From Actinomycetota bacterium (GTDB taxonomy: Bacteria > Actinomycetota > Acidimicrobiia > IMCC26256 > VFJJ01): DNA of 64,000 bases. Positions within the stretch are counted from its first letter, which is position 1. Every line of letters begins with the position of its first letter. Under the pieces are notes generated by a model. The model ran no database searches. It had not been told where the DNA came from and saw nothing but the letters and a program-made list of their open reading frames with translations. The stretch is from NCBI GenBank assembly GCA_009886115.1, contig VFJJ01000011.1, forward strand, positions 91,348-155,347, in the 5' to 3' direction. Positions 17,741-25,413 of this stretch are shown here, piece by piece. The position numbers and the translations under genes were made by a program.

Positions 17741-18511
17741 TCACGCGCCGACGGCATGGAAGCCGCCGTCGACATGCACCATCTCGCCGGTCGTGGCGGG
17801 GAACCAGTCGGACAGGAGCGCCACGACGGCCTTCGCCGCGGGCTCGGGGTCGGTCACGTCCCAGCCGAGGGGGGCCCGTTCGGTCCACAGCTCCTCGAAC
17901 CGGGCGAACTCGGGGATCGACTTGGCGGCGATCGTGCGCAGCGGACCGGCGCACACCAGGTTGACCCGAATCTGATGCGCCCCCATGGCCCGGGCGAGGT
18001 AGCGCGAGCACGACTCGAGGGCCGCCTTGGCGACGCCCATCCAGCCGTAGAGCGGCCAGGCGACGGTGGCGTCGAAGTCGAGGCCGACGATCGAGCCGCC
18101 CCCAGCCGCCTCCAACAGAGGCTTGCACGCCTCGGCGAGCGCCTTGAGCGAGTAGGCCGACACCTGCATCGCCGTCGAGACGTCACCCCAACCGGCTCGG
18201 AAGAAGTCCTCCCCCAGGCAGGCTTCGGGAGCGAAGCCGATCGAGTGCACGACCCCGTCGACCCGTCCCCACCGTGCTGCGAGATCGGCCCGCAACGCAG
18301 CCAGGTGCTCCTCGTTGGTGACGTCGACCTCCACGATCTCAGGCACCGTGGCGAGCTTCTTCGCAACCCGCTGGGTGAGCGACATGGCCCGCCCGAACGA
18401 GGTGAGGACGATCTCGGCACCCTGCTCCTGGCAGAGCCGGGCGACCGTGTAGGCGATCGAAGCGTCGGTCAGGACGCCGGTCACGACGATCTTCTTACCC
18501 TCGAGCAACAT
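17741..18511 (-). CDS. fabI: Enoyl-ACP reductase, InhA/FabI type
   Basis: It performs the last, NADH-dependent reduction of each fatty-acid elongation cycle. The 256-residue short-chain dehydrogenase fold has the FabI-specific nucleotide loop VVTGVLTDASIAYTVA, HSIGFAP, and the active site WPLYGWMGVAKAALES, where Tyr and Lys are six residues apart as in InhA. The DFDATVAWP stretch also follows InhA more than E. coli FabI. ATG 18511 is preceded by GGGAG. It is the last gene of the fab operon, 42 bases after the carboxyltransferase. A longer frame running through this region is a shadow. Confidence 0.95.
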   Translation of the reverse strand: MLLEGKKIVVTGVLTDASIAYTVARLCQEQGAEIVLTSFGRAMSLTQRVAKKLATVPEIVEVDVTNEEHLAALRADLAARWGRVDGVVHSIGFAPEACLGEDFFRAGWGDVSTAMQVSAYSLKALAEACKPLLEAAGGGSIVGLDFDATVAWPLYGWMGVAKAALESCSRYLARAMGAHQIRVNLVCAGPLRTIAAKSIPEFARFEELWTERAPLGWDVTDPEPAAKAVVALLSDWFPATTGEMVHVDGGFHAVGA

Positions 18512-19952: not shown

Positions 19953-21248
19953 TCAGGCCGACGGGCCTGGCACCCGATGGGCAGGCGCCGACTCGTCGCG
20001 GGCCGGACCCAGCACCAGGCTGGCGTTGTGCCCACCGAAGCCGAACGAGTTGGAGATCACCGGCGCTACCGCGATCGTCCGAGGGCTGCCGGCGACGATG
20101 TCGACGAGCATCTCGGGATCGGCGGTGTGATGGTTGGCGGTCGGGGGCACGATGCCCCGAGTGGCGCTGAGCAATGCGGCAATGGCCTCGACCGCACCCG
20201 CCGCGCCGATCATGTGGCCGATGACGCCCTTGGTGGAGGTGAGCGGGGGCGGCTTGTCGCCGAAGACCTTGCGCACGGCCTCGGCTTCGGCAGCGTCGTT
20301 CATCGGAGTCGAGGTGCCGTGGGCGTTGACATGGCCGATCGCCGCAGCCGTGAGGCCGGCGTCGGCCAGTGCCTGCTCCATGCACGCCGCGGCACCAGAC
20401 CCGCCGGGCGATGGCGCCGTGATGTGATAGGCGTCGTTGTTGCGACCGTACCCGAGCACCTCGCCGTAGATCCGGGCGCCTCGCTCGACGGCCCGGTCGT
20501 AGCGCTCGAGCAGCAAGAAGCCGGCGCCCTCGCCCATCACGAACCCGTCGCGGTCGACGTCGAACGGCCGCGATGCCAGCTCGGGGGCGTCGATCCGGGT
20601 CGACAGCGCGGTCATGCGCCAGAAGGCCGACAGCGTGATCGGGGTGATGACGGCCTCACAGCCGCCGGCCATGACGATGTCGGCCGAGTCGTCGCGGATC
20701 ATCCGGGCGCCCTCGCCGATGGCGTTGGCCGAGGTGGCGCACGCCGTGGAAACGCAGAAGTTGGGGCCGGTCCAGCCGAATTGCATCCCGATGACGGCGG
20801 TGGCGGCGTTGGGCATGAACATGGGGACGAGGAAGGGGCTGACCCCCCGATACCCCTTGGTGGCGTACGCAACGGCCTGCTCCTCGAAGGTGATGATGCC
20901 CCCGATGCCCGACCCGGCCACGACCCCGCAGCGGGCCGGATCGGCGCCGACATCGCCAGCATCAGCCAGCGCATCGACCGCCGCGCCGATCGCGAACTGT
21001 GAGACCCGGTCGAGGCGGCGGACCTCCTTGGGGGCCACGTACGTCGTGGGGTCGTAATCCGTGACCTCACATGCGAAATTGACCGGGAGCTCCGACGCGT
21101 CGAAGCGGGTGATCGCCGCAGCCTGCGACCGGGCCGAGAGCACGGTCTGCCAGAACGTCTCGACGTCGTTTCCCGCTGGGCTCTTCACGCCCAGGCCGGT
21201 GATGGCGACACGAGGGCGTCCCCGATGATCGAGGTGGTCGACGGTCAT
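19953..21248 (-). CDS. fabF: 3-oxoacyl-ACP synthase II
   Basis: It elongates acyl-ACP with malonyl-ACP. The 431-residue thiolase-fold enzyme has the active-site Cys in CVSTACATSANAIGEG and the two catalytic histidines in VNAHGTSTPMND and GVIGHMIGAAGAVEA. FSSNSFGFGGHNA appears as ISNSFGFGGHNASLV near the end. These are all the expected KAS I/II residues. ATG 21248 gives a usual N-terminus, VAITGLGVKSPAGND. It sits between acpP and the carboxyltransferase gene, all on the minus strand. Confidence 0.96.
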   Translation of the reverse strand: MTVDHLDHRGRPRVAITGLGVKSPAGNDVETFWQTVLSARSQAAAITRFDASELPVNFACEVTDYDPTTYVAPKEVRRLDRVSQFAIGAAVDALADAGDVGADPARCGVVAGSGIGGIITFEEQAVAYATKGYRGVSPFLVPMFMPNAATAVIGMQFGWTGPNFCVSTACATSANAIGEGARMIRDDSADIVMAGGCEAVITPITLSAFWRMTALSTRIDAPELASRPFDVDRDGFVMGEGAGFLLLERYDRAVERGARIYGEVLGYGRNNDAYHITAPSPGGSGAAACMEQALADAGLTAAAIGHVNAHGTSTPMNDAAEAEAVRKVFGDKPPPLTSTKGVIGHMIGAAGAVEAIAALLSATRGIVPPTANHHTADPEMLVDIVAGSPRTIAVAPVISNSFGFGGHNASLVLGPARDESAPAHRVPGPSA

Positions 21249-21338: not shown

Positions 21339-21590
21339 CTAGCTCTTGGCTGCCAGCTTGCCCATGACCAGGTCGAGGGAGTTGCCGATGGTGAGCACAC
21401 CCTCGAGGTCGTCTTCGGGGACCGTGATGTCGAAGCGCTCCTCGAGTGCCATCACGAGCTCGACGAGGTCGAGGCTGTCGGCGTCGAGGTCCTCCTTGAA
21501 GCGGGCCTCCTCGGTGATGGCGTCGTCGTCGACACCCAGCACCTCGATAGCCGCCTCACGAAGCTTGACGAACGCATCAGCGCGGTCCAT
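21339..21590 (-). CDS. acpP: Acyl carrier protein
   Basis: This is the 83-residue carrier for growing acyl chains. The phosphopantetheine attachment Ser lies in DLDADSLDLVELVMALEE, the classical DSL motif. Length and strong acidity are normal. It is encoded between fabG and fabF, as in many fatty-acid operons. No phosphopantetheinyl transferase gene is in the window. Confidence 0.97.
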   Translation of the reverse strand: MDRADAFVKLREAAIEVLGVDDDAITEEARFKEDLDADSLDLVELVMALEERFDITVPEDDLEGVLTIGNSLDLVMGKLAAKS

Positions 21591-21620: not shown

Positions 21621-22391
21621 TCAATGCCCCATCCCCAGTCCGCCGTCGACGGGAATGATGGCTCCAGTGATGTATCCGGCGAGGTCGCTGCACAGGAATG
21701 CGACGGTGGCGGCGACCTCGTCGGCGGTTCCGAAACGCCCGAGCGGAACCTGCCCGGCCAAGTCGGTCCGACGTTCCTCTCCGAGGGCGTCGGTCATGGC
21801 GGTGGTGATCGGCCCCGGGGCCACGACGTTGGCCGTGATGCTACGGGACGCGAACTCCCTGGCAACAGTTCTGGTCAAGCCGATCACGCCGGCCTTGGCC
21901 GCCGCATAGTTGGCCTGACCAGCCGATCCGAGCATCCCGACGACCGATGTGACGTTCACGATCCGGCCGAACCGGGCCCGCATCATCCCTGGCACCGCCC
22001 GCCGGATGGCGTAGAAGCATCCGTCGAGGTTGGTGTGCACGACGCTCGACCACTGCTCGTCGGTCATGCGCAGCAACAGGCCGTCGGCGTTCATCCCGGC
22101 GTTGTTGACCAGGAGCGTGACCTTCTCACCGAAGGCGTCCTCGACGGCGGTGAAGGCTGCGTCGACGGCGGCCACGTCGGAGGCGTCGGCTCGCACCGCC
22201 AGCCCGGCGCCTCCAGCCTCCTCGATGTGCTCGACCACCTCGAGCGCGCCGTCCTCGTCGCGGGAGTAGGTGACACCAACCCGGTGTCCATCGGCAGCCA
22301 GACGGATCGCGATGGCCCGTCCGATGCCCCGTGACGCGCCGCTGACCAGCGCCACCCGGGTCGGGGCGGCGCTGTCTGCTCGGGAGGTCAT
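21621..22391 (-). CDS. fabG: 3-oxoacyl-ACP reductase
   Basis: NADPH-dependent reduction of 3-oxoacyl-ACP. This 256-residue short-chain dehydrogenase has VSGASRGIGRAIA for the nucleotide, LLVNNAGMNADGLLLRM, catalytic Ser in VNVTSVVGMLG and the Tyr-Lys pair in NYAAAKAGVIGL. The C-terminus VDGGLGMGH is typical of FabG. Its ATG overlaps the fabH stop as ATGA, so the two are coupled. Confidence 0.95.
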   Translation of the reverse strand: MTSRADSAAPTRVALVSGASRGIGRAIAIRLAADGHRVGVTYSRDEDGALEVVEHIEEAGGAGLAVRADASDVAAVDAAFTAVEDAFGEKVTLLVNNAGMNADGLLLRMTDEQWSSVVHTNLDGCFYAIRRAVPGMMRARFGRIVNVTSVVGMLGSAGQANYAAAKAGVIGLTRTVAREFASRSITANVVAPGPITTAMTDALGEERRTDLAGQVPLGRFGTADEVAATVAFLCSDLAGYITGAIIPVDGGLGMGH

Positions 22392-23392
22392 GCCTTGGCT
22401 CCCCAGCGGATGAGCGCCGAGGCCCAGGTCATCCCGGCGCCGAAGCCGGCGATGAGCACGAGGTCGCCCGGCTTGATGCGCCCCTGATCGGCGGCCTCGA
22501 ACATGGCCAGCGGGATCGACGCCGACGACGTGTTGCCGAAGCGGTCGAGGTTGATGACCGTCTTGTTGGTGGGGAACCCGAAGCGCTTGATGGCGGCCTC
22601 GATGATGCGGATGTTGGCCTGGTGGGGCACGAACACGTCGACGTCAGCGGCGGTCACGCCGGCCTGGGCCAGGGTCTTCTCGACGGTGCCCACGACGGCT
22701 CGGACGGCCCGCTTGTACACCTCCTGGCCTTCCATCTTCAGGTAGTGGCCCCGGTTGGCGACCGTCTCGGCGCTGGCTGGCAAGCGCGTGCCTCCGGCGG
22801 GCACGTTCAGGATCGACCAGGCCGAGCCATCGCAGCCCAGATCCCACGCCAGCACGCCGGGAGCGCTGGGCGAGGTGTCGTCGTGGCGCTGGAGCACGCA
22901 CGCCGCGGCTCCGTCTCCGAAGAGCACCACGGTGGCGCGGTCCTGGGGATCGATGATCCGGGTGAGGGCCTCGGCGCCGATCAGCAGGACCGACCGGTAC
23001 ATCCCGGTGTTCATGAGCGCAGCCGCGGTCACGTAGCCGTAGGCGAAGCCCGAGCAGGCCGCGTTCACGTCGAAGGCTCCGCAGCGCAGGCCGATGCCGT
23101 CATGGACGATCGACGATGTCGACGGGACGACCATCTCGGGCGTCGCCGTGGCCAGCACCAGCAGGTCGATGTCGTCGGGGGTCAGGCCCGCGTGCTTGAT
23201 CGCGGCCATGCCGGCATCGATGCCAAGCGTGGCGGTCGATTCGTCGGGTCCGGCGACCCGCCGTTCCCTGATGCCCGAGCGCGACACGATCCACTCGTCG
23301 GTCGTGTCGACCTGAGCTTCGAGGTCGGCGTTGGTGAGCCGGCGTTCAGGCAGGGCAATGCCCCAACCCGCGAACGTGACGGGGATGAACAT
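22388..23392 (-). CDS. fabH: 3-oxoacyl-ACP synthase III
   Basis: It starts fatty-acid synthesis by condensing an acyl-CoA with malonyl-ACP. The 334-residue protein has the catalytic Cys in DVNAACSGFAYG, His in FVPHQANIRI and Asn in DRFGNTSSASIP, plus the usual opening VTFAGWGIALPERRLTN and TTDEWIVSRSGIRERR. Whether it prefers acetyl-CoA or branched primers cannot be read. It lies 30 bases after the biotinyl-like gene and overlaps fabG. Confidence 0.96.
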   Translation of the reverse strand: MFIPVTFAGWGIALPERRLTNADLEAQVDTTDEWIVSRSGIRERRVAGPDESTATLGIDAGMAAIKHAGLTPDDIDLLVLATATPEMVVPSTSSIVHDGIGLRCGAFDVNAACSGFAYGYVTAAALMNTGMYRSVLLIGAEALTRIIDPQDRATVVLFGDGAAACVLQRHDDTSPSAPGVLAWDLGCDGSAWSILNVPAGGTRLPASAETVANRGHYLKMEGQEVYKRAVRAVVGTVEKTLAQAGVTAADVDVFVPHQANIRIIEAAIKRFGFPTNKTVINLDRFGNTSSASIPLAMFEAADQGRIKPGDLVLIAGFGAGMTWASALIRWGAKA

Positions 23393-23422: not shown

Positions 23423-23728
23423 TCAGGCGATCCGCAGCCAGGCCACCGGCTGGCCTTCGCGCACTCGCTCGCCCGGCTCGGCGAGCATGCCCATGACACG
23501 CCCCCGGAAAGGACTGCACACGGGCTCGGAAGTGCCCGGGCCCTCGACGGCGCCGATCGCCTGACCCGGCTCGATGGCCAGCGGATGATCGGCCAGGCCG
23601 TCGGCGTCGCTGTCGACCGGGGCCGAGGCGTGGGGCCGGAAGACCCCGGCCCTCGGTGAGACGATCACCCGCTCGAGGACGGCGAGGCGTTCTCCCTGCA
23701 GCACTTCGGCCACGGTGCTCGTCGACAT
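23423..23728 (-). CDS. Biotinyl/lipoyl-like domain protein lacking any lysine
   Basis: The 101-residue protein aligns by eye with the C-terminal domain of biotin carboxyl carrier proteins: VIVSPRAGVFRP matches the VxSPMVGTFYR strand, then IEPGQAIGAVEG, and VCSPFRGRVMGMLAEPGERVREGQPVAWLRI matches the GTV...GxxV...PLxxI end. Where AccB has EAMKM, this has EGPGT, and the whole protein contains no lysine, so it cannot carry biotin or lipoate. ATG 23728 has AGGAG at good spacing. An ATG at 23857 overlaps the fabD stop as ATGA and would add a Pro-rich 43-residue extension. It sits inside the fab operon next to fabH, with a carboxyltransferase further down, so a structural or regulatory role is possible. 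Confidence 0.8.
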   Translation of the reverse strand: MSTSTVAEVLQGERLAVLERVIVSPRAGVFRPHASAPVDSDADGLADHPLAIEPGQAIGAVEGPGTSEPVCSPFRGRVMGMLAEPGERVREGQPVAWLRIA

Positions 23729-23853: not shown

Positions 23854-24777
23854 TCATGCGGCCTCGATGGCGTCGAGCACGGTGAGCTCATCGGGGGTGG
23901 CGATGCCGAGAGCGCGTACGTCGGGGACGGTGCGCTTGGCCAGGCCGGCGATCATCGAACCGTGGCCGATCTCGAGGAAGGTCGTGGCGCCGATGCCGGC
24001 CAGGGTCTCCATGACGCTTCGCCACCGGACGGGGCGCGTGAGATGGGTGACCAGGCGCTCGCGCCAGCCGATGCCGTCGGCGTACGACCGCGCGTCCTCG
24101 TTGGAGACCACCGGGGCGTCGGGCGTGTGCCAGGTGAGCGTGCTCAGGTGATCGGCGAGCGACTCGGCCGCTTCGGCCATGAGGGGGGTGTGGAAGGCGC
24201 CACCCACGTTGAGGGGGGTGATTCGCCGGACTCCGGCCTGCTTGGCGGCCTCGCTGGCGGTCTCGACGCCCTCCGGGGTCCCGGCGATGGCGATCTGGCC
24301 GACCGTGTTGTCGTTGGCGATCCAGCAAGCGTCGGGAGCGGCGGCACAGGCCTGCTCGGCCTGCTCGAGGGTGCCGCCGAGGAGAGCGACCATCTTCCCC
24401 GGGCGCCGGTTGGCTGCCTCCTGGGTGAGCTCGGCCCGCCGTGCCGCCAGTACGACACCGTCGTCGAGCTCCAGCGTGCCGGAGGCGATCAGCGCCGTGA
24501 CCTGCCCCAACGAGTGCCCGGCGAAGGCGACGGGAGGCGACGGAAGTTGGTCACGAACGGCGTCCCACACAACGAGACTGGTGAGAAGCACCGAGAGTTG
24601 GGCCTCGCGGGTGCTCGAGAGCTCCTCGGCAGAGGCGTCGACGAGAAGGTGGGTGAAGTTCTCGCCCGTGGCCTTCTCGGCTCGCTCGACCACGGCCCAG
24701 CTCGGGTGGTCGACCCAGGGACGTCCCATGCCGGGCTGTTGGGTGCCCTGACCTGGGAAGACGATGGCATGACCCAT
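23854..24777 (-). CDS. fabD: Malonyl-CoA:ACP transacylase
   Basis: It loads malonyl groups onto ACP. The 307-residue protein starts IVFPGQGTQQPGMG, has the nucleophile Ser in FAGHSLGQVTALIA, and the catalytic His in NVGGAFHTPLM. Gln and Arg residues expected for malonyl binding are present (QGTQ; ARRAELTQEA). It is the first gene of the minus-strand fab operon and divergent from fabZ across 177 bases. Confidence 0.95.
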   Translation of the reverse strand: MGHAIVFPGQGTQQPGMGRPWVDHPSWAVVERAEKATGENFTHLLVDASAEELSSTREAQLSVLLTSLVVWDAVRDQLPSPPVAFAGHSLGQVTALIASGTLELDDGVVLAARRAELTQEAANRRPGKMVALLGGTLEQAEQACAAAPDACWIANDNTVGQIAIAGTPEGVETASEAAKQAGVRRITPLNVGGAFHTPLMAEAAESLADHLSTLTWHTPDAPVVSNEDARSYADGIGWRERLVTHLTRPVRWRSVMETLAGIGATTFLEIGHGSMIAGLAKRTVPDVRALGIATPDELTVLDAIEAA

Positions 24778-24954: not shown

Positions 24955-25413
24955 ATGGCCCAGCCGGCGAGCCCAGATCCGTCCTATCCGCGTGTCGCGG
25001 TCGACCCGTTCGTCGCACTCTTGCCCCATCGGCCGCCGTTTCGGTTCGTGGACGTGGTCGACGAGTGCCGGCCTGGCGATCACGTTCGGGCGCGATACCG
25101 CGTCACCGGCGACGAGGCCTTCCTCGCCGGTCACTTCCCTGGTAATCCCGTCGTCCCCGGGGTGATCCAGCTCGAGGCGCTGGCCCAGGCCGGAGCCATC
25201 GCCGTGCTGTCCGACGAGCGCTACGCGGGCCGACTGCCGCTGTTCGGCGGGGCCGAGAAGGTCAGATGGCGCCGGATCGTCCGTCCGGGCGACGAGCTCG
25301 TCCTCGAATGCACGCTCGAGCAGCTCTCCGCCCGCGGCGGTTGGGGCGCCGCCCGGGCCACCGTCGACGGCCAACGTACCTGCGAGGCCCGGATCTTCTT
25401 CGCCCTCGGCTAG
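24955..25413 (+). CDS. fabZ: 3-hydroxyacyl-ACP dehydratase
   Basis: It removes water from 3-hydroxyacyl-ACP. The 152-residue hot-dog protein has LLPHRPPFRFVDVV, the catalytic His in FLAGHFPGNPVVPGV and the catalytic Glu in QLEALAQAGA, then FGGAEKVRWRRIVRPGDEL. ATG 24955 starts just upstream of the conserved region. The gene is divergent from fabD and supplies the dehydratase that the minus-strand operon lacks. A tRNA-Leu gene follows 99 bases later. Confidence 0.93.
   Translation: MAQPASPDPSYPRVAVDPFVALLPHRPPFRFVDVVDECRPGDHVRARYRVTGDEAFLAGHFPGNPVVPGVIQLEALAQAGAIAVLSDERYAGRLPLFGGAEKVRWRRIVRPGDELVLECTLEQLSARGGWGAARATVDGQRTCEARIFFALG

Follow-up and report, generated by a model that had tools for sequence, protein, structure and literature searches.

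The locus considered here raises the question of what a protein built like a biotin carrier domain can do inside a fatty acid biosynthesis operon when it has no lysine on which to carry biotin. The protein, termed X, is encoded within the window, the whole 64,000-nucleotide stretch of an Acidimicrobiia genome that was analysed.

Reading frame and operon context of X

The frame of X is interrupted on the plus strand and the open reading lies on the minus strand (Table 1), a point left unstated in the original prediction, whose claim that no lysine occurs in 101 residues is confirmed by translation of that strand. An AGGAG motif precedes the ATG start. An alternative start at 23857, which overlaps the fabD stop, opens a frame of 144 residues with one additional lysine; the shorter start is favoured over this frame because X orthologues begin near it. 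The other eight proteins of the cluster have a lysine content of 1.75%, from which 1.8 lysines are expected per 101 residues, with a probability of finding none of ~0.17. The complete lack of lysine, shared by 26 of 43 named X orthologues, was rejected as an anomaly by itself at this composition. The zero count alone is weak evidence, and what stands above chance is the absence of lysine at the attachment position.

Table 1. Positions in the window of X, its hairpin and the neighbouring fatty acid synthesis genes.
Feature	Positions	Strand	Basis
fabI, enoyl-ACP reductase	17741..18511	minus	NCBIfam
CTx, carboxyltransferase beta-like subunit; inherited together with X, uncertain start codon	18553..19962	minus	NCBIfam, PDB sequence match, clade
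fabF	19953..21248	minus	NCBIfam, ORF
acpP, acyl carrier protein	21339..21590	minus	NCBIfam, ORF
fabG	21621..22391	minus	NCBIfam, ORF
fabH	22388..23392	minus	NCBIfam, ORF
X, biotinyl-domain protein without lysine, 101 aa	23423..23728 (stop codon included)	minus	translation, orthologue starts, predicted fold
Hairpin EGPGT (X residues 62-66) replacing EAMKM; Gly65 at lysine position	23531..23545	minus	alignment, predicted model
fabD, malonyl-CoA:ACP transacylase; fused with X in other lineages	23854..24777	minus	NCBIfam, ORF
fabZ, divergent; start codon uncertain	24955..25413	plus	NCBIfam

The minus-strand genes follow the order fabD-X-fabH-fabG-acpP-fabF-CTx-fabI, with fabZ divergent, and this order, together with the NCBIfam names, upholds the earlier placement of X in one operon with a carboxyltransferase and fabH. 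The fabD-to-fabI order with X was found again in most of 45 named loci, some of which end at contig boundaries, ranging from Acidimicrobiia MAGs to Aquihabitans sp. G128, and X lies immediately downstream of fabD in nearly all named operons. The window FabD scores 234.6 bits against its NCBIfam model (cut-off 260.9). The usual motif of bacterial FabD is GHSLGE; the window protein displays GHSLGQ, as do 25 of 25 loci of the order scanned, and the fused protein L117 has GHSVGE. The NCBIfam match of CTx, to mmdA, is under its cut-off, and the closest PDB entries by sequence are B subunits of propionyl-CoA carboxylase complexes (405 bits); the AccD6 score is 265 bits. CTx is ~60 N-terminal residues short of the propionyl-CoA carboxylase B subunits, with query residue 13 opposite chain residue 75.

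Fold and attachment site

The strand pattern of a biotin carrier originally read from the letters is borne out by structure prediction. An AlphaFold2 model of X built from 43 family sequences (mean pLDDT of 85.4) displays strands at residues 57-63 and 66-71 connected by a turn at 64-65, and structural comparison with Foldseek and VIA-align revealed matches led by BCCPs, including E. coli AccB (PDB codes 1bdo and 4hr7_G; Z of 11.5) and Arabidopsis BCCP1 (Z of 11.2). The predicted fold of X is that of functional BCCPs, a biotinyl barrel. At the sequence level, every match of the window X alone to Pfam and NCBIfam falls under the model cut-off, including that to Biotin_lipoyl (PF00364; 14.6 bits, gathering cut-off 22.1), and 30 of 43 family members match PF00364 at E 0.01.

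An excerpt of a previous report gives E-x-M-K-M as the biotinylation hairpin motif (PMC11077971). In X the hairpin reads EGPGT where EAMKM would be expected, as originally proposed, and the attachment lysine aligns to Gly65; the X family profile places EGPGT opposite both the EAMKM of a BCCP and the EGDKA of a lipoyl E2, with glycine facing lysine. Over 109 aligned rows of the X family (25 + 44 + 40 loci, with repeats kept rather than de-duplicated and the doubtful members L161 and L162 counted), the attachment column contains lysine in none, glycine in 77, a deleted tip in 15 and other residues in 17, such that neither the lysine of the E-x-M-K-M hairpin nor that of lipoyl domains was found at the site in any row. 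The lysine-free site is accordingly a property of the relatives and not of the window protein alone, which answers the check proposed with the original prediction. A few rows have a lysine one or two places off the column (e.g. EGKGH in L094, L096 and L097), and seven more X sequences outside this tally, read by eye, lack the attachment lysine too. Judged from its sequence, X cannot accept biotin at the usual position.

The suggestion that X might bind another cofactor found no support. It is very improbable that the X hairpin bears a different attached group, or that X works somewhere else, e.g. as a binder of small-molecule ligands: the C-terminal region does contain conserved charged residues and Trp97, but the hairpin tip that would bear the group is variable or deleted, and therefore displays no conserved attachment residue. 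It is extremely improbable that X is a functionless, decaying former carrier. Loss of the attachment lysine and absence of X from several lineages would agree with decay, but X keeps its place between the same neighbours throughout the class, ten columns are invariant among 43 members, and of six orthologue pairs five have dN/dS values between about 0.08 and 0.2, with the closest pair reaching 0.4 (dN 0.04 vs dS 0.10). X orthologues are under purifying selection, and together with the family-wide conservation this rules out a local mutation or pseudogene.

These observations are consistent with X being a biotinyl domain turned non-carrier. Biotinylatable domains lie on other contigs of the window's genome, one with EAMKM in L229 (719-codon frame) and one with ESMKM in L239 (77-codon frame), and X is therefore not needed as a carrier. 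A separate gene for a true carrier thus exists elsewhere in the genome; it would supply the biotin carrier proper and presumably pairs with CTx.

Candidate partners of X

Among 198 genomes of the class, counted by hand from match lists with a CTx presence threshold of 1e-125 set from a gap observed in the match scores, X and CTx are both found in 61 and neither in 125, while nine have X only and three CTx only; the p value of the Fisher test applied to this table is no true probability, because the genomes are related and relatedness inflates co-occurrence statistics. Weak matches to X in the phylum (E above about 1e-10) were treated as ordinary carriers or unrelated proteins and excluded from the X set. 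Within the order (58 genomes) the corresponding numbers are 37 with both, 16 with neither, one with X only and four with CTx only, two of the CTx presences (G014 and G052) being partial matches. The four genomes with CTx only were rejected as counter-examples, and are uninformative as such, because in each the contig ends before the operon reaches the position of X. In six operons spanning fabD through fabI without a break (L167, L168, L169, L171, L172 and L174), X and CTx are both missing, and L179, cut inside fabD, is a seventh. The absence of X requires at least three changes on the FabF-FabG tree, with X and CTx missing together from the operons of those lineages.

The CTx rows form one clade with a support of 100/100, separate from 12 generic carboxyltransferases. 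In lineages where X is fused to FabD, CTx lies mostly away from the fab operon, and linkage alone therefore does not explain the co-occurrence of X and CTx. At the 15 CTx loci examined in these lineages (L186-L199 among them), CTx is usually located between LysR-type and citrate-synthase-like genes, named by eye. An isolated X-CTx pair lies among unrelated genes in L084, from a bin with a contamination estimate of 5%; the same genome, G041, has another piece of CTx next to fabI where a contig ends (L180:8378-10004). When the background signal of the other operon genes was removed, the tree distances of X over 31 loci correlated best with those of CTx (r of 0.28, Mantel p of 0.0025, the highest of six tests with uncorrected p values), followed by fabF (0.20, p of 0.015) and fabH (0.15, p of 0.047), while the partial correlations with fabD (0.08, p of 0.23), fabG (0.07, p of 0.21) and fabI (-0.14, p of 0.95) were not significant.

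It is conceivable from these data that X is purely a carboxylase subunit that helps to assemble the CTx complex or inhibits it, in the manner of plant BADC or of an epsilon subunit, with its fusions to FabD serving as incidental devices for co-expression. Co-inheritance with CTx, the pair in L084 and a strongest coevolution of X with CTx all point in this direction, and the plant proteins, as described in an excerpt of the source, offer a precedent (PMC11926652). We nevertheless regard this explanation as distinctly unlikely, in view of X operons without CTx (L103, L124 and L125) and of FabD fusions in lineages that lack CTx. Nine X genomes of the class are under the CTx threshold, comprising G014, with a partial CTx-like piece, G040, where X lies in an intact operon, and seven of families f92, f94, f95, f102 and f104. 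In the X genomes examined outside the class, the search for CTx returned generic carboxyltransferase matches only, with identity of at most 48%.

A single reading frame spans FabD and X in 18 ORFs, distributed over other Acidimicrobiia families and family f43 outside the class, with X placed at the C-terminus of FabD. Two changes between the fused and separate states are required on the FabD tree, both forced by supported branches, and the fusion thus arose at least two independent times. Frame length and tblastn positions indicate that five of seven further genomes also appear fused. FabD is a candidate partner of X no weaker than the carboxylase, because the two are physically fused in several lineages, and the broader one, because some X genomes of the class and those examined outside it are without CTx. 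In the predicted model of the natural fusion L117, FabD is confident while X is under a pLDDT of ~50, and no docking is visible. One of the 18 fused ORFs (L118:7086-8240) joins X to a degenerate FabD from which FPGQG and GHSxG are lost, and the bin that holds it also contains a normal fabD-X operon (L099). In families f94 and f95 an X-like gene lies outside the fab operon. Two X-like lysine-free genes off the operon (L258:4301-4495 and L260:9091-9312) neighbour nusB-like and pyrR/pyrB/pyrC-like genes, named by eye, and may be a relic of an accB position.

X could instead be an accessory domain serving FabD alone, in its stability, oligomerisation, regulation or docking to ACP. The association with CTx would then reflect only the common descent of a specialised operon for fatty acid synthesis. 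The repeated fusion to FabD speaks for this explanation, as does the presence of X beside or fused to FabD where CTx is absent, in the class and outside it. It is still somewhat unlikely, since eight genomes of the order have FabD without X, all eight also lacking CTx, which disfavours X tracking FabD alone within the order. CTx is, moreover, co-inherited with X even when unlinked from the operon, X and CTx form a pair without fab genes in L084, and no fabD lies upstream of X in L095, L102 and L112.

The explanation that we tentatively prefer, with a probability of roughly 0.4, is that X, BCCP-like but carrier-dead, acts as an adaptor between the carboxylase and FabD, joining malonyl-CoA production to malonyl transfer onto ACP and/or stabilising the carboxylase. 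X would act as a protein-protein adaptor whose BCCP-like surface docks on an acyl-CoA carboxylase, in Acidimicrobiia chiefly on the dedicated CTx. Being bound or fused to FabD, it would place malonyl-CoA production beside its transfer onto ACP, and/or the carboxylase would be stabilised. We infer that X binds CTx or FabD. Against this explanation stand the nine X genomes of the class below the CTx threshold, the merely generic carboxyltransferase matches in X genomes beyond it, the occurrence of X without fabD in L095, L102 and L112, the non-significant partial correlation with fabD and the L117 fusion model, which displays no docking. Of the original proposal that X is a scaffold or regulator of the carboxylase, the carboxylase half fits the co-inheritance with the CTx clade and the X-CTx pair of L084, but the FabD half, to which the fusions point, was missed. 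A more elaborate version, possible though doubtful, would have a carrier-dead BCCP mimic, in some cases fused to FabD, dock in CTx and unite carboxylase and malonyl transacylase for direct handover of malonyl-CoA to ACP, as an independently evolved bacterial counterpart of BADC with channelling. To our knowledge, there is no settled account of how the supply of malonyl-CoA is coupled to its use in dissociated type II fatty acid synthases. X, a conserved, BCCP-like and non-catalytic domain joined to FabD in some lineages and inherited together with one carboxyltransferase, offers a bacterial candidate for such coupling that can be put to the test.

Comparison with known systems

The biotinyl domain of E. 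coli AccB (PDB codes 1bdo and 4hr7) is predicted to share the fold of X over 71-74 residues. Most standalone X members have a hairpin of equal length, and the X family profile spans the AccB domain nearly whole. X differs from AccB in lacking the attachment lysine, in presenting only 22% identity and in being encoded beside or fused to FabD. The mycobacterial FAS-II operon with accD6 also contains a carboxyltransferase gene among fab genes, as does the X operon, although CTx is nearer to propionyl-CoA carboxylase B subunits than to AccD6 (405 vs 265 bits); we know of no X-like gene in the mycobacterial operon. The AccE epsilon subunits of actinobacterial acyl-CoA carboxylases resemble X, by analogy only, as small non-catalytic proteins encoded with a carboxyltransferase, but they are not known to be biotinyl barrels. 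The literature surveyed, mostly titles and abstract openings, mentions no BCCP-like protein that lacks lysine and either lies in a fab operon of bacteria or forms a fusion with FabD.

The plant BADC proteins provide a further comparison. An excerpt of the source describes them as BCCP homologues that are not biotinylated, are linked to fatty acid synthesis, bind BCCP and BC of the heteromeric acetyl-CoA carboxylase and function as assembly "glue" or as inhibitors (PMC11926652). X too is a BCCP-like domain without the biotinylation motif. In contrast to BADC, which is known from plants and binds BCCP and BC, X is bacterial and linked to CT and FabD, and the two are likened by description, not by sequence. 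By analogy, X may work as BADC proteins do. Its features suggest that biotin carriers could also have been turned into assembly or regulatory components outside plants.
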